DNA of 64,000 bases from the NCBI RefSeq assembly GCF_019884785.1, contig NZ_CP082326.1, positions 1,047,355 to 1,111,354 of the forward strand, written 5' to 3'. Source of the stretch: Crassaminicella profunda (GTDB taxonomy: Bacteria > Bacillota > Clostridia > Peptostreptococcales > Thermotaleaceae). This document shows, in pieces, positions 52,032 through 64,000 of this stretch. Under the pieces are notes generated by a model that had not been told where the DNA came from, ran no database searches, and saw nothing but the letters and a program-made list of their open reading frames with translations. Position 1 is the first letter of the stretch; each line of letters opens with the position of its first letter. A program made the position numbers and the translations under genes.

Positions 52032-54119
52032 TTGAAGGTTAAAGATTTGATGACAAAAGACCCTATTGTGGTAACCGTCAATGATACATTGAATGATGTT
52101 GTGAAAATTTTTATTTCGAATCGTATTGACGGTGCACCTGTGGTTGATAAATATGGAAAACTCATAAGTATTATTACAAAAACTGAATTGATGAAAGCCT
52201 TTGTAAATAAAGTTTCTCCACTTACTTGCATAGACAAAATTTCTTCTAAAAGGGTTATTACTATAAACGAGGATGCGGATATAAAAGATGCTTGGGATGC
52301 TGGGGTAGGAAGATTGCCGGTTGTTAATGAAAATGGGAATTTAGTAGGAATCCTTACTCGTACTGATTTATCAAAAAGACTTCTAGAAAAAGAAGTTCAG
52401 GAGTCTAAAGAGATCAAAGCAATTTTGCAGTCTACGAATAATGGAGTCATCATCGTTAATCAGGAGGGATTGATTACCCGGTGTAATCCTTCTGCTATCA
52501 GGATATTGGATTTGGATAACAAGGACATTGGGGGTCTAGAAGTAGAATGTGTTTTACCAGAATTAAAACTTCATGAAACTGTTAAAACAGGAATGACTAC
52601 ATATACAGAAAAAATTCAGTTTAAGGATAAAGAACTCATATGTGATCGTATTCCTTTATTCAAAGAGGAAGAGGTTGCTGCTGGCGTCATTGTTTTTAAA
52701 GACAGTTCTGATTTACAAAGTACAATAGATGAATTAAACACTGTACAACAATTATCAAAAAAATTAGATGCGGTCATTGAATCTTCTTATGATGGTATTT
52801 ATATTACAGATGGACAAGCAAATACGATGAAGATTAATAAAGCCTATGAAAGAATTACTGGGGTAAAAAGAGAAGAAATGCTAGGGAGCAATATGATAGA
52901 ATTAGAAAAATCTGGATGCATTTCTGAGTCAGCTACTCTAAGAGTATTGAAAACTAGAAAAACAACTACTATTCATCAAAAATTCCGAACAGGAAAGAAT
53001 GCATTGGTTACCAGTACCCCTATTTTTGATAAGAACGGAAAAATTTCAATGGTAGTGACAAATGTGAGAGATATTACGGAACTTGCAAAGCTTAAGGAAC
53101 AGCTTGAAAAAAATAAAGAGCTGGCACAAAAGTATTATTCTGAGATTGAAGAAATGCGATTACAGCTTTTAAATACTTTGCATATTGTTGCTGAAGATGA
53201 AAAAATGCTTGAGACCATGCGGATTGCAAAAAGAGTTGCAAAGGTGGATACAACGGTATTGTTATTAGGAGAAACAGGGGTTGGAAAAGAGGAAGCAGCA
53301 AAATTTATTCATAAGAATAGCAATCGAAAGAGAAATCAATTTATAAAAATTAATTGCGGTGCAATTCCTATGAATTTAATTGAATCTGAATTATTTGGGT
53401 ATGAAAAAGGGGCTTTTACTGGAGCGAATAGAGAAGGTAAAGTAGGGTTGTTTGAAGTTGCAAATGGAGGAACCTTGTTTTTAGATGAAGTAGGAGAATT
53501 ACCTTTAGATATGCAAGTGAAACTTCTTAGAGCACTTCAGGAAAGGGAAATTAAGCGTGTTGGTGGGACTGTATCTGTTAAAATAGATGTTCGTATTTTA
53601 GCTGCAACGAATCGTGATCTTGAAGAGATGGTAAAACAAAAACAGTTTCGAGAAGATCTTTACTATAGGTTAAATGTTGTGCCTATTAATATTCTTCCTT
53701 TAAGAGAAAGAAGAGGAGATATTCTACCTCTTGTGCGCTATTTTCTTTCCGAACTTAATGAGAGATATCATTGGGATAAAGAATTTAGTAAAGATGCACT
53801 GGGGGTATTGTATGAATATGATTGGCCAGGAAACGTTCGGGAATTGAAAAATATTGTGGAAAGAGTATTTATTATGAGTAGTGAAAGTAAAATTACCTTT
53901 GAGGATCTTCCTAAAAAAATAGTTGCTAGTAATATAAATAGAGAGTTAGTTTTAGGAGAGGGCATTGTACCGTTAAAGGATGCTGTTGCAAAGGTGGAAA
54001 TGGAACTCCTTGATAAAGCTTTTGAAAAGTATGGAAATGTAAGGAGTGCAGCGAAAGTTTTAGGGATAGATGCATCTACATTTGTCAGAAAAAGGAAAAA
54101 ATACAGAAAGATGCATTAG
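52032..54119 (+). CDS. CBS-PAS sigma-54 activator, probable regulator of 4-hydroxybutyrate genes
   Basis: 695 residues. Two CBS domains (about 1-120: MKVKDLMTKDPIVVTVNDT, GRLPVVNENGNLVGILTRTDL) are followed by two PAS domains (about 130-230 and 245-350), a short coiled coil and the AAA+ domain with GETGVGKEEA, GAFTGA and TLFLDEVGE. A Fis helix-turn-helix ends it (RSAAKVLGIDASTFVRKRKKY). CBS pairs commonly sense adenine nucleotides or cofactors, perhaps CoA- or SAM-linked signals here. The start is TTG 52032 after GGGAGGTG. The stop codon overlaps the first upstream dyad of abfD copy 1, and matching dyads precede copy 2. Confidence 0.94.
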   Translation: MKVKDLMTKDPIVVTVNDTLNDVVKIFISNRIDGAPVVDKYGKLISIITKTELMKAFVNKVSPLTCIDKISSKRVITINEDADIKDAWDAGVGRLPVVNENGNLVGILTRTDLSKRLLEKEVQESKEIKAILQSTNNGVIIVNQEGLITRCNPSAIRILDLDNKDIGGLEVECVLPELKLHETVKTGMTTYTEKIQFKDKELICDRIPLFKEEEVAAGVIVFKDSSDLQSTIDELNTVQQLSKKLDAVIESSYDGIYITDGQANTMKINKAYERITGVKREEMLGSNMIELEKSGCISESATLRVLKTRKTTTIHQKFRTGKNALVTSTPIFDKNGKISMVVTNVRDITELAKLKEQLEKNKELAQKYYSEIEEMRLQLLNTLHIVAEDEKMLETMRIAKRVAKVDTTVLLLGETGVGKEEAAKFIHKNSNRKRNQFIKINCGAIPMNLIESELFGYEKGAFTGANREGKVGLFEVANGGTLFLDEVGELPLDMQVKLLRALQEREIKRVGGTVSVKIDVRILAATNRDLEEMVKQKQFREDLYYRLNVVPINILPLRERRGDILPLVRYFLSELNERYHWDKEFSKDALGVLYEYDWPGNVRELKNIVERVFIMSSESKITFEDLPKKIVASNINRELVLGEGIVPLKDAVAKVEMELLDKAFEKYGNVRSAAKVLGIDASTFVRKRKKYRKMH

Positions 54120-54436: not shown

Positions 54437-55927
54437 ATGGCATTAATGACAAAAGAACAATATCTTGAAAGTTTAAGAAAATTGGATGTAAAGGTGTATA
54501 TGTTTGGAGAATTGGTTGAAAACTTTGTAGACCATCCAGTAATTAGACCATCTATCAATTCAGTAGCAATGACTTATGAATTAGCACATGATCCTCAATA
54601 TGAAGATTTGATGACAGCTACATCTAACTTAACTGGGGAAAAAGTAAATCGTTTTACACATTTACATCAAAGCACAGATGATTTAAGAAAGAAAGTAAAA
54701 ATGCTAAGACTTCTTGGACAAAAAACTGGATCATGCTTCCAAAGATGTGTTGGTATGGATGCCTTCAATGCAGTATATAGCACAACTTTTGAAACAGATA
54801 AAGCACATGGAACAAAGTACCATGAAAACTTCAAAAAGTATTTAGAGTATGTACAGAAGAATGACTTAGTAATAGATGGAGCGATGACTGACCCTAAAGG
54901 AGATAGAAGTTTAGCACCAAGTAAGCAACATGATCCTGATCTTTTCTTACACGTAGTAGAGCAAAGAGAAGATGGTATTGTTGTAAAAGGAGCAAAAGCC
55001 CATCAAACAGGTTCTATTAACTCACATGAACATTTAATTATGCCAACAATTGCTATGAGAGAAGGAGACGAAGCTTACGCAGTATCTTTCGCAGTACCAA
55101 CAGATGCAGAAGGAATTTATATGATCTATGGAAGACAAAGTTGCGATACAAGAAAGTTAGAAGAAGGTGCAGATATTGATGTAGGAAACAAACAATTTGG
55201 TGGACAAGAAGCATTAGTAGTATTTGATAATGTATTCATTCCAAATGATAGAATTTTCCTAAATGGAGAAGTAGAATTTGCAGGAATGCTAGTAGAAAGA
55301 TTTGCAGGATACCATCGTCAAAGTTATGGTGGATGTAAAGTAGGTGTTGGGGATGTACTTATAGGAGCAGCAGCACTTGCAGCAGAATTCAATGGAGCAG
55401 CAAAAGCTTCTCACGTTAAAGATAAATTAATCGAAATGACTCACTTAAATGAAACATTATACTGCTGTGGTATTGCCTGTTCAGCAGAAGGATATCCAAC
55501 AGAGGCTGGAAACTATCAAATCGATTTATTACTTGCAAATGTATGTAAGCAAAATGTAACAAGATTCCCATATGAAATCACAAGACTTGCAGAAGATATT
55601 GCTGGAGGACTTATGGTAACAATGCCATCAGAACAAGATTTCAAACATCCAGTAATTGGACCTGTTTGCGAGAAATACTTCAAAGGCGTAAATGTAGTTC
55701 CAACAGAGCATAGAATGAGAGTACTAAGACTGATTGAAAATATGACATTAGGAACAGCAGCAGTAGGATATAGAACAGAATCAATGCATGGAGCAGGTTC
55801 TCCGCAAGCACAAAGAATTATGATTGCAAGACAAGGAAATCTACCTCATAAGAAAGATTTAGCAAGAAAAATTGCTAGAATTGATGAAGTTTCTGTAGCA
55901 GCAAGAGAAGCGGCGGCTACAAAATAG
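54437..55927 (+). CDS. abfD: 4-Hydroxybutyryl-CoA dehydratase / vinylacetyl-CoA isomerase, copy 1
   Basis: 496 residues. A flavin and [4Fe-4S] enzyme that dehydrates 4-hydroxybutyryl-CoA to crotonyl-CoA by a ketyl-radical path and isomerises vinylacetyl-CoA. Cluster ligands known for the Clostridium aminobutyricum enzyme (Cys99, Cys103, His292, Cys299) are matched one residue later: GSCFQRC gives Cys100 and Cys104, and GYHRQSYGGC gives the His and third Cys near 293 and 300. KGAKAHQTG and NMTLGTAAVGYRTESMHGAG also fit. GGAGCTGA precedes ATG 54437. It differs from copy 2 at about 22 residues. Confidence 0.96.
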   Translation: MALMTKEQYLESLRKLDVKVYMFGELVENFVDHPVIRPSINSVAMTYELAHDPQYEDLMTATSNLTGEKVNRFTHLHQSTDDLRKKVKMLRLLGQKTGSCFQRCVGMDAFNAVYSTTFETDKAHGTKYHENFKKYLEYVQKNDLVIDGAMTDPKGDRSLAPSKQHDPDLFLHVVEQREDGIVVKGAKAHQTGSINSHEHLIMPTIAMREGDEAYAVSFAVPTDAEGIYMIYGRQSCDTRKLEEGADIDVGNKQFGGQEALVVFDNVFIPNDRIFLNGEVEFAGMLVERFAGYHRQSYGGCKVGVGDVLIGAAALAAEFNGAAKASHVKDKLIEMTHLNETLYCCGIACSAEGYPTEAGNYQIDLLLANVCKQNVTRFPYEITRLAEDIAGGLMVTMPSEQDFKHPVIGPVCEKYFKGVNVVPTEHRMRVLRLIENMTLGTAAVGYRTESMHGAGSPQAQRIMIARQGNLPHKKDLARKIARIDEVSVAAREAAATK

Positions 55928-56118: not shown

Positions 56119-57486
56119 ATGGCGATGAAGAGAGAGTTAGGAAAAGAACAACCGTATATTCCAGCAGGGCCGTTTAAAATTCGTATTCCATTTATCCATT
56201 ACAAATTCGAATGGGCGGATTATATTCAGGGATTATTAATGTGTGCAGTCTGTCTTGGGGCAGTTCCAATGCTTCAAGAGTATTTAGGAATGCCTTTTGA
56301 AGTAGCTATGGCAATTGTTGTACTAAATGGATTATTCTATTGTGCACATGTATTTTTAGGAGATCCGGTAGTCCCAGGATGGGTAACGCCAGCTATTCCA
56401 CTTTTGATGCTTCATATTAGTCAATATGAAATGGGTCCTGAGAGAATGCAAGCTTTAATTGCATTTGAGATGTCTTTAGGTATTTTAGCAATTATTTTAG
56501 GTGTTACAGGACTTGGTAAAAAAATTGTTTCTATTGTTCCTAATGCAATGCAATCAGGAATTATAATGGGTGCAGGTTTTGCAGCTGTAATTCTTATTTT
56601 TAAGAAGGGTGCTAAGTTTGATAGTTTTCCATTATCTATTATTATTTGTGTAGGATTAGGTTTCTATCTTTTATTCTCAAATCATTTTAAAAGTATTAGA
56701 GAAAACCATTCTATATTAAAGGTGATTGCGAACCTAGGGATTTTACCAGTTGTAGCGTTAGCTATCATAGTAGGTCCAATGCTTGGGGAAACACCATGGC
56801 CACAAATTGAGTGGGGAATTACAAAACCTGCATTTGCTACTATGTGGAGAGAGTGGACATTCTTTGGAGTGGGTTTTCCTCCAGTGAGTCTGTTTATTGA
56901 AAGTTTACCTACAGTTATCTCTGCATATATCGTATTATTTGGAGATATGATTCAATCACAAGCTTTACTTGAAGATGCTGGAAAGGTTCGTACAGATGAA
57001 CATATTGATTATAATCCTAATAGATCTCACTTAGTATTTGGTTTAAGAAACTTTATTATGTCTATTATCGGACCAGATTTAACTATGTGTGGACCTCTTT
57101 GGGCCGCGATGCAAGTTGTTATTTGTGAACGTTATAAGCATGGAAGAAAAGCAATGGATTCAATTCATGGTGGAGCAGGATCTTTTAGATTTGGTACTTT
57201 TACAGGTTACTTAATTCTTCCGATTGTTACCCTTTGTAAACCTATATTAGGAATTGCTCTTGCGTCTACTATGTTGATTCAAGGTTATGTTTCTGTTCGT
57301 GTTGGGGTTATGAAGGCTCGTACCTTTAATGATTTAGGTATTGCTGGTGTAATGGGTGCTGTTCTTTGTACTCGTGGAGCTGCATGGGGACTTGCAGCAG
57401 GTATTGTGCTTTGCTTACTTGTTAATTTAGGAAATAAGCCAGAGTATGATGTGTATGTATTTGGTGAAGAAGAAGAAGCAGCTTAG
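56119..57486 (+). CDS. NCS2-like multi-span membrane transporter, candidate 4-hydroxybutyrate carrier
   Basis: 455 residues with roughly 11-13 hydrophobic segments. The architecture (a long N-terminal half with VVPGWVTPAIPLLML, and GIIMGAGFAAVILIF, then ISAYIVLFGDMIQSQALLEDAG and GPDLTMCGPLWAAMQ) resembles the xanthine/uracil permease superfamily (NCS2/SulP fold), but I cannot place it in a named subfamily. AAAGGAGGAA precedes ATG 56119. Being enclosed by the two abfD units, it may import 4-hydroxybutyrate or a related acid; this is inference from position. Confidence 0.75.
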   Translation: MAMKRELGKEQPYIPAGPFKIRIPFIHYKFEWADYIQGLLMCAVCLGAVPMLQEYLGMPFEVAMAIVVLNGLFYCAHVFLGDPVVPGWVTPAIPLLMLHISQYEMGPERMQALIAFEMSLGILAIILGVTGLGKKIVSIVPNAMQSGIIMGAGFAAVILIFKKGAKFDSFPLSIIICVGLGFYLLFSNHFKSIRENHSILKVIANLGILPVVALAIIVGPMLGETPWPQIEWGITKPAFATMWREWTFFGVGFPPVSLFIESLPTVISAYIVLFGDMIQSQALLEDAGKVRTDEHIDYNPNRSHLVFGLRNFIMSIIGPDLTMCGPLWAAMQVVICERYKHGRKAMDSIHGGAGSFRFGTFTGYLILPIVTLCKPILGIALASTMLIQGYVSVRVGVMKARTFNDLGIAGVMGAVLCTRGAAWGLAAGIVLCLLVNLGNKPEYDVYVFGEEEEAA

Positions 57487-57550
57487 TTTAAAATTAAAGT
57501 ATGCAGGTAGTCATAAGGCTATCTGCATCTTTCCATATGGAGGAGATTTT

Positions 57551-57871
57551 ATGAATGTCAAGATTACAGAAGAGGCGAAGATGTATATAAAAAAGCAAAA
57601 GGCCTCTTGTGTTGTTATTCATATGATTCCAGAAGAGACAAGTGGTGGATGAGGATGTGGAAATACAAAGAGATACTATATTCCTTCCGTGAGAATGGGA
57701 TTTAAAGATCAAAAAAAGGTGAAATCATATGAAAAGCTCAAAATTAATGGAATAGATGTTTATTTGTCTTCTAAAGTAGAAATGGATAAAGAGGGAATTA
57801 CTATTTTTCTTGAAAAAATATTTTTTAAACGGAGACTACAGGTTGAAGGGATATTGCTTCGATTGCAGTAA
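57551..57871 (+). CDS. HesB/IscA-like selenoprotein (in-frame TGA as Sec34)
   Basis: 107 codons counting the stop. The frame reads MNVKITEEAKMYIKKQKAS..., reaches SGG at 57641-57649, a TGA at 57650-57652, then GCGNTKRYYIPSVRMGF and a normal C-terminal half, ending at TAA 57869. The fold pattern is that of a short HesB/IscA-like protein, and a selenocysteine-containing HesB-like family is known from clostridia. A plausible SECIS-type hairpin follows the TGA (GGAAATA pairing with TATATTCC, about 57659-57684). GGAGGAG precedes ATG 57551. If TGA is a stop, the gene would be broken, but both halves look intact. Selenium incorporation is inferred. Confidence 0.8.
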
Positions 57872-57909: not shown

Positions 57910-58818
57910 ATGAGGATCAATCATACACAAATATTAGAAAATCCTGCGTATAAAAATTTGTCAGTTATTTTAGGGAATCATCCAAAAGAATATACGGTTA
58001 TAGATTATTTAACCATTGCAGCTTTTTATATGCATGCCATATATAGTGAACAAATTGTTGTTGCAGTAGCAGATATAGAGAAATATCGTGTCTATATTCC
58101 AGGAAAAAGGATTAATCATAACCTAAAAGCAGGAGATAAACTTGTAAAAGGGTCTATTATGAGTGACGCCATTAATAATAAAAAAAGGATTAGTAAAAAG
58201 ATAGATGAAAATGTTTTTGGGTTTCCATATATAGGAACGGCTTATCCTATTTATGACCAATCGGGTAAAGTTGTAGCTGGACTAATCATATGTGAAAGTA
58301 ACGAAGGTTTAGCCAATATGACAGTAGCTGCCTCAGATTTAAATAATGTTTCAGAAAGAATCATAGAGATGGTGGAGGATTTGGAAACTTCAAATGGTAA
58401 ATTATCTGGTGTAGGAGAGAAATTATCCGAATTATCATCGGACTCTTTAGAAAAGGTTGCAGCTACAGATGAAATATTAAAGTCTATTGGTGGCATTGCA
58501 AAGCAATCGAATATTTTAGGAATTAATGCAGCTATTGAAGCTGCAAGAGCTGGGGAATTAGGAAAAGGATTTGGTGTTGTTGCTAAAGAAATACAAAAAT
58601 TTTCCAATCAAAATGTAAATTCTCTTAAAATTATTGAAGAAACTTTAAAACAAATTTGTGCTTCTTCCGAAAATGTAAATGATGAGGTTGGGCATATAAG
58701 GGAGTTTGTGAAAAAACAAGCTGAAGTTATGTCAGAGTTATCCTCAGTTACGCAGCAGTTATATTCTGTAAGTGTCCTACTAAAAGATTTAGCAGAAAAA
58801 ATGATAGAAAGAAAGTAA
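57910..58818 (+). CDS. Soluble methyl-accepting chemotaxis-type sensor
   Basis: 302 residues and no membrane segment. The first 140 residues form a sensor-like domain ([58 protein letters not shown]). The rest is a short MCP signalling hairpin with the conserved tip [31 protein letters not shown]. The signalling hairpin is shorter than in full chemoreceptors. AAAGGAGACGG precedes ATG 57910. Its place in the abfD unit suggests it senses a substrate or redox state linked to the pathway. Confidence 0.88.
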
Positions 58819-58831
58819 AGGAGGAGTTTTT

Positions 58832-59446
58832 GTGTTTACATGTGCAGACTGTGAGATCATAGGTTGTCGAAAAGGAGAATTTGAAAAAGTACCTGCTAAT
58901 TGTCCTATAAAAGAAGAGGAAGTTTATGAGTGTGCAAGGGAAGAATATGAGAAAGAAGAAATTAAAAAGTTTATAGATGGAACAATACAACTTGAAAAAG
59001 AAGGAAAGGGTAGATGGTCTCGCGTTGAAGAAACCATTCAATTCTGTAAGATGATGAATTATAAAAAAATTGGTGTAGCCTTTTGTTTAGGACTTAAAAA
59101 GGAAACAAAAATATTTGTAAAAATTCTTAGAGATCATGGTTTTGAGGTTTCATCAGTGATTTGTAAAAATGGAGGGATTGATAAAAAAGCATTAAGTATA
59201 AGTGATGGAGAAGATTTAAGAGGAGTAAGTTGTAATCCAATAGGACAAGCCATGTTGTTGAACAAAGAGGAGACGGAATTTAATATTACTATAGGACTTT
59301 GTGTAGGACATGACGCTTTGTTTTTTAAATATGTTGAGGCTCCAACTACTGTGTTACTTACAAAAGATAGGGTTTTAGCCCATAATCCAATTGGCGCTTT
59401 GAATTGTGCCCATAGTTTTTATCGTAGAAAGCTAAGAAATAAGTAA
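58832..59446 (+). CDS. DUF1847 family cysteine-rich protein
   Basis: 204 residues. The N-terminus has a cysteine-rich, probable metal-binding segment (CADCEIIGCRKGEFEKVPANCP), and the body has GVAFCLGLKKETKIFVKIL, GVSCNPIGQAMLLNKE and GLCVGHDALFFKYVEAPTT, the DUF1847 pattern. Function is unknown. It starts with GTG 58832 after AAAGGAGGAG, 13 bp behind the chemotaxis-type gene, so they share a transcript. Confidence 0.9.
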   Translation: MFTCADCEIIGCRKGEFEKVPANCPIKEEEVYECAREEYEKEEIKKFIDGTIQLEKEGKGRWSRVEETIQFCKMMNYKKIGVAFCLGLKKETKIFVKILRDHGFEVSSVICKNGGIDKKALSISDGEDLRGVSCNPIGQAMLLNKEETEFNITIGLCVGHDALFFKYVEAPTTVLLTKDRVLAHNPIGALNCAHSFYRRKLRNK

Positions 59447-59847: not shown

Positions 59848-61338
59848 ATGGCATTAATGACAAAAGAACAATATCTTGAAAGTTTAAGAAAATTAGATAT
59901 AAAGGTGTACATGTTTGGAGAATTAATTGAAAACTTTGTAGATCATCCAGTAATTAGACCATCTATCAATTCGGTAGCAATGACTTATGAATTAGCACAA
60001 GATGAACAATATGAAGATTTAATGACAGCTACATCGAACTTAACTGGGGAAAAAGTAAATCGTTTTACACATTTACATCAAAGTACAGATGACTTAAGAA
60101 AGAAAGTAAAAATGCTAAGACTTCTTGGACAAAAAACAGGATCATGTTTCCAAAGATGTGTGGGAATGGACTCTTTCAATGCTGTATATAGTACAACTTA
60201 TGAAATTGATAAAGCTCATGGAACAAAATATCATGAAAACTTCAAAAAATATTTAGAATATGTACAAAAGAATGACTTAGTAGTAGATGGAGCTATGACT
60301 GATCCTAAAGGAGATAGAGGTTTAGCACCAAGTAAGCAAAAGGATCCTGATCTTTTCTTACATGTAGTAGAGCAAAGAGAAGATGGTATCGTTGTAAGAG
60401 GAGCAAAAGCTCACCAAACAGGAGCAGTAAACTCTCATGAACATCTAATCATGCCAACAATTGCTATGAGAGAGGGAGACGAAGCTTACGCTGTATCTTT
60501 TGCTATTCCATCAGATGCTGAAGGTATTTTTATGATCTACGGAAGACAAAGCTGTGATTCAAGAAAGACAGAAGAAGGTGCAGATATTGATGTAGGGAAT
60601 AAAGAATTTGGTGGACAAGAAGCATTAGTAGTATTTGATAATGTATTTATTCCAAATGATAGAATCTTCTTAAATGGAGAAGTGGAATTTGCAGGAATGT
60701 TAGTAGAAAGATTTGCAGGATACCATCGTCAAAGTTATGGTGGATGTAAAGTAGGTGTTGGTGATGTACTTATAGGAGCAGCAGCACTTGCAGCAGAATT
60801 CAATGGAGCAGCAAAAGCTTCTCACATTAAAGATAAATTAATCGAAATGACTCACTTAAATGAAACATTATACTGTTGTGGTATTGCTTGTTCAGCAGAA
60901 GGTTATCCAACAGAAGCTGGAAACTATCAAATCGATTTACTACTTGCAAATGTATGTAAGCAAAATGTAACAAGATTCCCATATGAAATCACAAGACTTG
61001 CAGAAGATATTGCTGGAGGACTTATGGTAACAATGCCATCAGAACAAGATTTCAAACATCCAGTAATCGGACCTGTTTGTGAGAAATACTTCAAAGGAGT
61101 AAATGTAGTTCCAACAGAGCATAGAATGAGAGTATTAAGACTTATTGAGAATATGACATTAGGAACAGCAGCAGTAGGATATAGAACAGAATCAATGCAT
61201 GGAGCAGGTTCTCCACAAGCACAAAGAATTATGATTGCAAGACAAGGAAACCTTGCACATAAAAAAGATTTAGCAAGAAAAATTGCTAGAATAGATGAAG
61301 TATCTGTAGCAACAAGAGAAGCAGCAGCTACTAAATAA
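59848..61338 (+). CDS. abfD: 4-Hydroxybutyryl-CoA dehydratase / vinylacetyl-CoA isomerase, copy 2
   Basis: 496 residues and about 95 percent identical to copy 1. All cluster ligands (Cys100, Cys104, and the His/Cys pair in GYHRQSYGGC) are unchanged. Substitutions lie mostly at surface-type positions in the first 245 residues, such as AQDEQYED for AHDPQYED and TTYEIDK for TTFETDK; the last 240 residues have only three. GGGAGCTGA precedes ATG 59848. This copy heads the unit with the CoA-transferase and dehydrogenase, so it is likely the main catabolic enzyme. Confidence 0.96.
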   Translation: MALMTKEQYLESLRKLDIKVYMFGELIENFVDHPVIRPSINSVAMTYELAQDEQYEDLMTATSNLTGEKVNRFTHLHQSTDDLRKKVKMLRLLGQKTGSCFQRCVGMDSFNAVYSTTYEIDKAHGTKYHENFKKYLEYVQKNDLVVDGAMTDPKGDRGLAPSKQKDPDLFLHVVEQREDGIVVRGAKAHQTGAVNSHEHLIMPTIAMREGDEAYAVSFAIPSDAEGIFMIYGRQSCDSRKTEEGADIDVGNKEFGGQEALVVFDNVFIPNDRIFLNGEVEFAGMLVERFAGYHRQSYGGCKVGVGDVLIGAAALAAEFNGAAKASHIKDKLIEMTHLNETLYCCGIACSAEGYPTEAGNYQIDLLLANVCKQNVTRFPYEITRLAEDIAGGLMVTMPSEQDFKHPVIGPVCEKYFKGVNVVPTEHRMRVLRLIENMTLGTAAVGYRTESMHGAGSPQAQRIMIARQGNLAHKKDLARKIARIDEVSVATREAAATK

Positions 61339-61404: not shown

Positions 61405-61683
61405 ATGTTTAATAGAGTAAATGAAGTAATAGACAAAATCATAAGACCAAAGTTAAAAGAGCATTATGGAGACATTGAGCTTGTAGAAGTGAAAGAGGGT
61501 ATTGTAAAAGTAAAATTTTTAGGAGCTTGCAGTGGATGTCCATCTGCAAAATTTACCCTGGAGGATATTGTACTTCGTGATTTACAGGAAAAAATACCTG
61601 AAATCAAGGAAGTTTTGCTAGTGACAGAAGTGAGTCAAGACCTTATAGATATGGCAAAAAAAATATTAAATAAGGAAAAGTAG
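61405..61683 (+). CDS. NifU C-terminal domain protein (Nfu-like)
   Basis: 92 residues, one Nfu domain. The cluster-binding CxxC lies in FLGACSGCPSAKFTLEDIV near 45. Nfu proteins carry and deliver iron-sulfur clusters. GGGGTGAGG precedes ATG 61405, 66 bp after abfD copy 2. Position suggests it serves the [4Fe-4S] cluster of the dehydratase. Confidence 0.92.
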   Translation: MFNRVNEVIDKIIRPKLKEHYGDIELVEVKEGIVKVKFLGACSGCPSAKFTLEDIVLRDLQEKIPEIKEVLLVTEVSQDLIDMAKKILNKEK

Positions 61684-61694
61684 GTAGATTGACT

Positions 61695-61964
61695 TTGAAA
61701 ATAGGGATAAAGTACTGTGGAGGATGTAACCCACGGTATGATCGAAAAAAGTTTATAGAGCAAATAAAAGAAGCGTTAGGAGAAAACTTTACGTTTGAAG
61801 TTGCAAAAGAAGAAGAAATGTATGATTTTCTTTTAGTAGTGGGGGGATGCACGAATTGTTGTGCAAATTTCACGAATATTCGCACTAAAAAAGGTGTTTT
61901 TTGTATAAAAAAGCATGATGATTATGAAAAAGTGATTCATGTAATCAAAAAAATTCATAAATAA
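61695..61964 (+). CDS. Small CGGCN-motif protein of unknown function
   Basis: About 89 residues. IKYCGGCNPRYDRKKFIEQIKEAL at the start and VVGGCTNCCANF near 52 give five cysteines in two clusters, suggesting metal or cluster binding. I recognise the CGGCNPR start from small clostridial proteins near amino-acid and CoA-pathway genes, but know no assigned function. TTG 61695 is preferred over TTG 61689 by spacing from TAGGT. It is 11 bp after the Nfu gene and 17 bp before the CoA-transferase. Confidence 0.75.
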   Translation: MKIGIKYCGGCNPRYDRKKFIEQIKEALGENFTFEVAKEEEMYDFLLVVGGCTNCCANFTNIRTKKGVFCIKKHDDYEKVIHVIKKIHK

Positions 61965-61981
61965 GGGAAAGGGTGGAGAAG

Positions 61982-63286
61982 ATGAGTTGGCAAGATGTTT
62001 ATCAATCTAAATTAACAACTGCAAAAGATGCTGTAAGCTATATTCAATCAGGAAATAGAGTAGTTATTGGTCATGCGGTATGTGAACCTCAAAAGTTAGT
62101 TGAGGCGATGGTAAATAATAAAGAACAATATGAAAATGTGGAAATCGTTCACATGGTAGCTATGGGAAAAGGCGAATATACAAATCCTGAAATGGCGCCA
62201 CATTTTAGACATAATGCATTATTTGTAGGAGGATCTACAAGAAAGGCAGTCAGCGAAGCAAGAGCGGATTATACTCCTTGTTTCTTTACAGAGATCCCAA
62301 GACTTTTCAAAGAAGAGTATTTACCAGTAGATGTGGCATTAGTTCAAGTAAGTCGTCCAGATGAACATGGATACTGTAGTTTTGGCCTTTCTGTTGATTA
62401 TACAAAACCAGCAGCAGAATGTGCAAAGGTAGTGATTGCAGAAGTAAATGATCAAATGCCAAGAACTATGGGAGATTCTTTTATTCATATTTCTGAAATG
62501 GATCATATTGTCGAAACTTCTTATCCAATCATAGAACTTCCACCTCCTAGAATTGGTGAAATTGAAAAGGCAATAGGTGAAAACTGTGCTAAACTAGTAG
62601 AAGATGGTTCTACTCTTCAATTAGGGATTGGAGCTATTCCGGATGCAGTACTATTATTCTTAAAGGATAAAAAAGATTTAGGAATTCACTCAGAAATGTT
62701 CTCAGATGGTGTTGTTGAACTAGTAGAGGCAGGCGTTATTAATAATAAAAAGAAAACTTTACACAAAGGAAAAATGGTTGTAACATTCTTAATGGGTACC
62801 AAGAGACTTTATGATTTTGTTGATAATAATCCGTCAGTAGAATTGTATCCAGTAGATTATGTAAATAATCCTTGTGTAATTATGCAAAATGAAAACATTA
62901 TTTCTATTAACTCTTGTATCCAAGTAGATTTAATGGGTCAGGTAGCTTCAGAAAGTATAGGATTAAAACAATTTAGTGGTGTAGGTGGACAAGTTGACTA
63001 TATTCGTGGAGCAAGTATGGCAAGAAAAGGTAAATCTATTATTGCTATTCCATCAACAGCATCAAAAGGGAAAGTTTCTCGTATTGCTCCTTTTATTGAT
63101 GAAGGTTCAGCTGTTACAACATCACGTAATGATGTAAATTATGTAGTTACAGAATATGGTATTGCACAATTGAGAGGAAAGAGCTTAAAAGAAAGAGGTA
63201 GAGCCCTTATCAATATTGCTCATCCAGATTTTAGACCAATGTTGATTGAAGAGTGGGAAAAAAGATTTAATTGTAAATTTGAATAG
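61982..63286 (+). CDS. abfT: 4-Hydroxybutyrate CoA-transferase
   Basis: 434 residues, family I CoA-transferase of the AbfT/Cat2/acetyl-CoA hydrolase group. It moves CoA from acetyl-CoA or butyryl-CoA to 4-hydroxybutyrate. GNRVVIGHAVCEPQKLVEAM near 30, LQLGIGAIPDAVL near 215 and the catalytic glutamate in NDVNYVVTEYGIAQLRGKS near 390 are visible. ATG 61982 follows AGGGTGGAGA; the GTG at 61973 overlaps that site. Context with abfD and the dehydrogenase supports the substrate. Confidence 0.94.
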   Translation: MSWQDVYQSKLTTAKDAVSYIQSGNRVVIGHAVCEPQKLVEAMVNNKEQYENVEIVHMVAMGKGEYTNPEMAPHFRHNALFVGGSTRKAVSEARADYTPCFFTEIPRLFKEEYLPVDVALVQVSRPDEHGYCSFGLSVDYTKPAAECAKVVIAEVNDQMPRTMGDSFIHISEMDHIVETSYPIIELPPPRIGEIEKAIGENCAKLVEDGSTLQLGIGAIPDAVLLFLKDKKDLGIHSEMFSDGVVELVEAGVINNKKKTLHKGKMVVTFLMGTKRLYDFVDNNPSVELYPVDYVNNPCVIMQNENIISINSCIQVDLMGQVASESIGLKQFSGVGGQVDYIRGASMARKGKSIIAIPSTASKGKVSRIAPFIDEGSAVTTSRNDVNYVVTEYGIAQLRGKSLKERGRALINIAHPDFRPMLIEEWEKRFNCKFE

Positions 63287-63306: not shown

Positions 63307-64000
63307 ATGAAATTTTTTAAATTACCAACACAAATCCATAAATTTAATGATTTTAAAACTTTTGCAGAAGAATTCCAAATTGGAGAAAATGATTTAGTAC
63401 TTACCCATCAATTCCTTTTTGATCCTTTTATGAAAGCATTAGACTTAAAAGCAGATTTTATCATGCAAGAAAAGTATGGTGTAGGTGAACCATCTGATGA
63501 AATGATCGATGAAATTTTAGCAGAAGTAGTTGATAAACCATATAAAAGAATTATTGCAATCGGTGGAGGCTCAGTAATCGATATTGCAAAACTATTAATC
63601 TTTAAAGATGGTAAAAACGCATTAGATATGTTTGAAAAGAGAATTGATTTCATAAAAGATAAAGAATTAATCATTGTACCTACAACTTGTGGAACAGGAA
63701 GTGAAGTAACAAATATTTCTATTGCTGAAATCAAATCAAAGCATACAAAGATGGGTCTTGCCATTGATGAATTATATGCTGATTATGCAGTACTTGTTCC
63801 AGAACTAATAAAGGGTCTTCCATACAAATTCTTTGTATTTAGTTCAATTGACGCGTTAATTCATGCTATTGAATCTTATGTATCACCAAATGCAAATGAC
63901 TTTACACAAATGATCAGTGTAAAAGCCATTGAAATGCTTTTAAAAGGATATATAGAGATTATTGAAAAAGGTGAAGATTACCGTCAAGAATTATTAGAAG
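63307..64000 (+). CDS. abfH: 4-Hydroxybutyrate dehydrogenase, 5' part
   Basis: The first 231 residues of an iron-containing (type III) alcohol dehydrogenase; the gene runs off the right edge. IIAIGGGSVIDIAKLLI near 82 is the nucleotide-binding motif, VPTTCGTGSEVTNIS near 127 follows, and SSIDALIHAIESYVS near 180 holds the first metal-binding residues. The family reduces succinate semialdehyde or oxidises 4-hydroxybutyrate. ATG 63307 lies behind AGGAAGGGG, 20 bp after abfT, in the same transcript. Confidence 0.92.
   Translation, partial: MKFFKLPTQIHKFNDFKTFAEEFQIGENDLVLTHQFLFDPFMKALDLKADFIMQEKYGVGEPSDEMIDEILAEVVDKPYKRIIAIGGGSVIDIAKLLIFKDGKNALDMFEKRIDFIKDKELIIVPTTCGTGSEVTNISIAEIKSKHTKMGLAIDELYADYAVLVPELIKGLPYKFFVFSSIDALIHAIESYVSPNANDFTQMISVKAIEMLLKGYIEIIEKGEDYRQELLE

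Follow-up and report, generated by a model that had tools for sequence, protein, structure and literature searches.

The frame at 57551-57871 of the window, by which we mean the whole 64,000-nucleotide stretch of Crassaminicella profunda DNA that was analysed, is predicted to encode a small protein of the CC/Se motif family, and the TGA within it, seemingly a stop, almost certainly encodes selenocysteine (Sec). We place good confidence in the explanation as a whole, namely that Sec is inserted into a CC/Se protein and that this protein forms part of a branch of the HesB superfamily; its action as a redox or metal-reactive helper of the adjoining permease or its pathway is the more tentative part. 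The gene and its signals are as follows.

57551..57871, + strand: small selenoprotein with 106 residues and Sec34, assigned to the CC/Se motif family (NF041239); from translation with TGA as U, the model match and orthologues
57650..57652, + strand: in-frame TGA, Sec codon (codon 34); from translation and from Sec/Cys in the aligned column
57539..57545, + strand: ribosome-binding site GGAGGAG, read from the sequence
57685..57700, + strand: candidate bacterial SECIS hairpin with a 6-bp stem and a GAGA loop; from a 30-base fold and codons fixed in orthologues

Translation of 57551-57871 with TGA as U gives 106 residues with a single TGA and a TAA at the end. The protein reads SGG before the TGA and GCGNT after it, as the original prediction described, and its claim that both sides are coding in the same frame is borne out by selection: dN/dS before and after the TGA, respectively, was 0.11 and 0.27 against the orthologue in G461, 0.17 and 0.19 against that in G449, and 0.25 and 0.22 against that in G467 (0.11-0.27 overall). 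The homologues do not stop at this point. Seven other orthologues, five of them 50-73% identical and two about 41% identical, read through a TGA at the same codon. They belong to a close subgroup of 11 aligned members that carry an insertion, GCGxTKRYYxP, after the Sec (varied in G477 and G283); G606, which matched but has no insertion, was left out of this count. Sec stands in eight members (the window genome G000, G449, G461, G467, G434, G477, G155 and G283), and Cys takes its place in the other three, encoded by TGT in G394 and G650 and by TGC in G402, which is the kind of TGA/TGC exchange that an alignment of homologues had been proposed to reveal.

The same pattern extends over the family. 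The Sec/Cys column is the only invariant column among 23 aligned family members when Sec is read as Cys, and the best tree of these members implies four changes between Sec and Cys, two of which are forced by well-supported branches. A family search of 391 genomes of the class found a match in 37 genomes; the 60 matches listed comprise 28 with one in-frame TGA, nine with two and 23 with none, and every in-frame stop among the 37 listed matches that bear one is TGA, with TAA or TAG in 0/60. Searching 393 genomes of the order with the window protein gave a match in 45, and a single one of the 51 listed matches (G528) has a TAA besides the TGA, at the very end of the match. A pattern scan of the genome contigs recovered one relative only.

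The genome also holds the complete selenocysteine machinery, for which the original prediction had asked. Model searches identified tRNA-Sec (74.5 bits), SelB (404 bits) and SelD (401 bits, with an in-frame TGA of its own); SelA, which adjoins SelB, was identified by reading the open reading frame rather than by a model run, and all four lie within about 13.4 kb. SelB was found in 8/8 other TGA genomes tested, that is, the seven of the subgroup and G606. It is missing from two of the three subgroup Cys genomes, G402 having SelB despite its Cys form, and from four of five further, hand-chosen Cys genomes, G091 being the one that has it.

A hairpin had been described after the TGA, and one can be drawn in which 57685-57690 pair with 57695-57700 around a GAGA loop, at -5.1 kcal/mol in a 30-base fold. 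The codons TCC GTG AGA ATG (57686-57697) are identical in 6/6 close Sec orthologues, although the ATG could not differ. By our own count, 15 columns of four- or six-fold degeneracy encode the same residue throughout the six orthologues, and only three of these, the adjacent S, V and R, use a single codon. The hairpin fares less well on the window sequence alone, which folds no more strongly than its shuffles (z -0.96 for 51 bases, +0.11 for 81, -0.26 for 48 and -0.45 for 41, the length closest to that originally suggested for folding); the single-sequence fold of the close relative L018 likewise gave no significant hairpin. The Rfam SECIS_1 model matched nothing in the genome, nor anything in any control genome, and is uninformative here.

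Comparison between genes was more telling. In the 58 genes whose motif was anchored by hand, the 48-base fold from the Sec/Cys codon averaged z = -0.99 over 40 Sec genes and +0.25 over 18 Cys genes (p = 4e-5), and the 30-base fold at the conserved P-x-V site had a mean of -7.1 versus -2.7 kcal/mol (Mann-Whitney p = 2e-6), p values that treat related sequences as independent. This set omits eight loci with two TGAs, L048 (partial), L089, L098 and L099 (partial or at an edge), second gene copies, and near relatives of included genes (L080, L081, L082, L084 and L086, near L090; L085, near L083; L093, near L092). Against the trend, the folds of the Sec genes L079 (-1.9 kcal/mol) and L061 (-3.0) are weak, and those of the Cys genes L021 (-12.9) and L045 (-7.3) are strong. 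The hairpin is lost in the three subgroup Cys orthologues (-2.6, -0.6 and -1.5 kcal/mol). The bSECIS model given in PMC13188914 requires a hairpin 16-37 bases after the UGA with an energy of at most -7.5 kcal/mol and a G among the first two bases of the loop; the loop of the window hairpin opens with G but is 38 bases from the UGA, and its -5.1 kcal/mol falls short of the energy limit. An alternative short stem drawn by eye, with the loop CGUGA 35 bases after the UGA, fits the spacing. As a separate observation, the Cys form at L021 (1501-1782, G109), which reads TGC TGC, retains its SECIS-like hairpin of -12.9 kcal/mol, as if the loss of Sec were recent.

The weakness of the hairpin in the window sequence is also what could be said for a plainer reading, in which the TGA is a true stop and the gene is broken or represents two short genes. 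We reject this reading as extremely improbable, given the purifying selection after the TGA (dN/dS 0.19-0.27), the TGA/Cys exchange among subgroup orthologues, the restriction of in-frame stops to TGA in the 37 stop-bearing matches listed, and the complete machinery. The comparative evidence thus upholds the assignment of this TGA to selenocysteine.

The protein matches NF041239 with 55.3 bits over residues 1-100, above the membership cut-off of 40. This family is already catalogued, as a predicted selenoprotein named 'hypothetical protein' and without function, in Table 1 of a 2026 review (PMC13188914), which gives it one Sec and the motif CxxU. The adjacent pair that the family name suggests as a possible requirement is missing from the window protein, as it is from other matches (GUR, CASU). 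Its only Cys or Sec residues are Cys20, Sec34 and Cys36, with none beyond residue 36, and the motif is UGCG, with Sec and Cys one residue apart (UGC); in G477 Tyr takes the place of Cys36, and in G283 this Cys is shifted.

The original prediction had called the protein HesB-like. At the level of the superfamily this description stands: in a profile comparison (hhalign) with 19 HesB-like proteins collected with TIGR01911, the family aligned with a probability of 95.5% over 81 columns (E 1.5e-8 for one comparison) and with Sec on Sec, as against at most 2.2% for 60 column shuffles and 3.6% for a reversed profile. The 19-sequence alignment was needed for this result, a single HesB-like sequence giving a probability of 22.9% only. 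The Pfam model PF01521 (Fe-S_biosyn) hits residues 1-82 of the window protein at E 0.0044 with 17.7 bits, below its cut-off of 26.3, and reaches E<=1 in 15 of the 23 family members (best 1.3e-5); the IscA/HesB model NF038090 matches four of the 23 (best 0.00075) and TIGR01911 one (0.092). On these comparisons, the window protein can be assigned to the HesB superfamily. The description does not hold for the family of HesB-like selenoproteins proper, TIGR01911, which had no match to the window protein at E<=1 and whose whole-genome search gave only another locus. The motif listed for these selenoproteins, UxGP (PMC13188914), is absent from the window protein. Membership of TIGR01911 is rejected on these two results, and the family is NF041239 instead. 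A profile search of solved structures returned a single match, at E 0.55, and an AlphaFold model built from two sequences was poor (mean pLDDT 49.6).

Several related genes were observed along the way. The same genome encodes a TIGR01911-like HesB-like gene with a TGA (L069 1501-1767; G000:C1:3228878-3229144), which has the motif GUGGP and scores 60 bits, below the cut-off of 66.35, and another gene of the CC/Se family, with a single TGA and the motif SICU (L049; G000:C1:4015300-4015566). Two adjacent in-frame TGAs occur at eight loci in seven genomes (L059, L060, L062, L063, L064, L065, L066 and L067; GUU, or TUU in L062), and further matches with two TGAs lie in G109:C23 and G501. Three of the two-TGA proteins scored 42.1, 32.8 and 41.7 bits against NF041239 (cut-off 40). 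These relatives would carry a would-be Sec-Sec pair; a limited literature search on consecutive UGA codons with selenocysteine found nothing.

The selenoprotein gene stands in the following row, its ATG lying 64 bases 3' of the end of the permease gene.

52032..54119, + strand: CBS/PAS sigma-54 activator
54437..55927, + strand: 4-hydroxybutyryl-CoA dehydratase (AbfD), copy 1; 878 bits to PDB 1u8v
56119..57486, + strand: PurT-like permease, 455 aa; PDB 7tak match and locus comparison
57910..58818, + strand: methyl-accepting-chemotaxis-like (MCPsignal) protein; domain match
58832..59446, + strand: DUF1847 protein; domain match, also after the selenoprotein in L018/G461
59848..61338, + strand: 4-hydroxybutyryl-CoA dehydratase, copy 2, sharing 96% identity with copy 1
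61405..61683, + strand: NifU-like (Nfu) domain protein; domain match
61689..61964, + strand: 91-aa CGGCNPRYDR protein with no assigned function
61973..63286, + strand: 4-hydroxybutyrate CoA-transferase; 622 bits to PDB 3eh7
63307..63999, + strand, running off the window: iron-containing alcohol dehydrogenase that matches several ADH models in part and is probably the 4-hydroxybutyrate dehydrogenase

The neighbour was correctly recognised as a 4-hydroxybutyryl-CoA dehydratase: PDB 1u8v, named gamma-aminobutyrate metabolism dehydratase/isomerase, is an entry which we take to be this enzyme, and the dehydratase of the cluster is presumably a [4Fe-4S] enzyme. PDB 3eh7 is named 4-hydroxybutyrate CoA-transferase. 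For the permease, PDB 7tak, a putative membrane protein PurT by name, gave E 1.5e-112, and Pfam Xan_ur_permease matched below its cut-off only. To judge from its position, the sigma-54 activator probably regulates the cluster. The MCPsignal gene between the selenoprotein and DUF1847 genes was not found at that place in the close relative L018/G461. The Nfu-like gene and the gene of the 91-residue CGGCNPRYDR protein (61405-61964) stand in 7/7 dehydratase loci, and Nfu-like frames were also read next to the dehydratase of L131 and of L132, both without the selenoprotein.

Of its neighbours, the selenoprotein gene is most tightly linked to that of the PurT-like permease immediately upstream. In nine of the 11 subgroup loci the gene for the selenoprotein, or for its Cys counterpart, comes directly after the permease, G283 and G467 being the exceptions. 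The dehydratase gene is present in the fetched stretch, within 9 kb, in seven of the 11 (G000, G461, G449, G434, G477, G155 and G283); in G394, G402, G650 and G467 it lies elsewhere in the genome, so that the three Cys loci have the permease upstream and no dehydratase gene in the fetched stretch. We rejected the dehydratase as the sole partner. Read from the permease, the link is looser: the 30 loci examined of 45 permease matches include seven with an intact copy of the selenoprotein gene behind and one with a truncated copy, all eight of which fall within the 17 loci that share 74% identity or more, and in six of the 30 (L119, L120, L127, L131, L132 and L134; by reading) 4-hydroxybutyrate genes follow the permease without the selenoprotein. 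On these counts, we regard the selenoprotein as an optional companion of the permease and the cluster, and not as a fixed part of the dehydratase pathway. The truncated copy (L100, G449:C58, 2165-2323) lacks the Sec part and lies behind a second copy of the permease, in an apparently duplicated cluster.

What the protein does was weighed between three roles. Taken together, its residues and neighbours suggest that it helps the permease or the pathway through selenol/thiol redox or metal-reactive chemistry; this is the most likely, if still tentative, role, and its redox part is argued by analogy. Somewhat less probable is that the protein serves the PurT-like permease alone, as a selenol switch or redox repair protein of the transporter, independently of dehydratase chemistry. 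The position behind the permease, shared by all three Cys orthologues whose dehydratase gene is elsewhere, fits such a partner or regulator, but the permease often stands without the selenoprotein, even where it clusters with 4-hydroxybutyrate genes, and in G467 and G283 the selenoprotein is not beside the permease.

The idea that was proposed at the outset, a specialised role in cluster assembly, would make the protein a carrier of Fe-S clusters, or a factor inserting them, that serves the [4Fe-4S] dehydratase specifically. Its place in the HesB superfamily, the dehydratase gene nearby in seven subgroup loci and the Nfu-like gene of the cluster are all compatible with this, and in the order sample the dehydratase occurs in 9/9 subgroup genomes versus 152/393 overall, a co-occurrence inflated by the relatedness of the nine genomes, for which reason we do not lean on it as proof of function. 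Conversely, a subgroup member is seen in only nine of the 152 genomes with the dehydratase, a count that leaves aside weak matches lacking a locus, and every one of the seven dehydratase loci already has an Nfu-like gene. The possible ligands are limited to Cys20, Sec34 and Cys36. Three Cys residues, including a C-terminal CxC, are the defining feature of the A-type Fe-S carriers IscA, SufA and ErpA, and since the window protein lacks the C-terminal Cys pair, cluster carriage is disfavoured. With the permease as the most constant neighbour, we consider a dedicated carrier unlikely; redox protection, the other half of the same proposal, is possible.

For the helper role that we prefer, we envisage that SelB and tRNA-Sec would insert Sec at residue 34, using the hairpin about 35-38 bases after the UGA. 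Sec34, which is aligned with the Sec of HesB-like selenoproteins, would be the reactive residue, with Cys36 as its usual partner. The protein would then be a selenol/thiol redox or metal-reactive helper rather than a cluster carrier, encoded in a row resembling an operon, beside the PurT-like permease and the genes of 4-hydroxybutyrate fermentation, and may serve the permease or the pathway, for example under oxidative or electrophilic stress. It is conceivable, though doubtful, that the UGCGxTKRYYxP branch is a dedicated accessory of the permease and the 4-hydroxybutyrate pathway, and hence an undescribed selenol-dependent transport or fermentation module with a SECIS element unusually far from the UGA.

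The literature compared comprised parts of PMC13188914 and PMC1794560. Limited searches on 4-hydroxybutyryl-CoA dehydratase with selenoproteins returned only an oral transcriptome study containing each term once; those on selenoproteins with Haft/NCBIfam or a Moorella hypothetical selenoprotein returned nothing on the permease or 4-hydroxybutyrate context; and those on PurTCp found nothing. The family itself is thus already known, and its context of permease and 4-hydroxybutyrate genes was not found described within these limits. The branch gives a function-less family a concrete gene context, and its Sec and Cys forms, which occur naturally in genomes that have SelB and in others that lack it, make a role testable. 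Our comparisons further tie the CC/Se family to the HesB superfamily, while its member in the window has no C-terminal Cys pair of the A-type kind.

Among known systems, the window protein most resembles the CC/Se family NF041239 (Moor_selen_rel), with which it shares a full-length match above the cut-off, the Sec/Cys column, a similar length and Clostridia-like relatives. Many members of that family have adjacent UC, CU or CC, whereas the window subgroup has an insertion after the Sec and its second Cys one residue away (UGC), and it differs from the rest of the family in being tied to the permease and the 4-hydroxybutyrate genes. The HesB-like selenoproteins of TIGR01911 are homologous by profile comparison, have their Sec at the aligned position and are represented in the same genome (L069), but the window protein fails their model at E<=1 and has no UxGP. 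With the A-type carriers IscA, SufA and ErpA (PF01521) the likeness is a weak model match, below the Pfam cut-off, and the C-terminal Cys pair of these carriers is absent.
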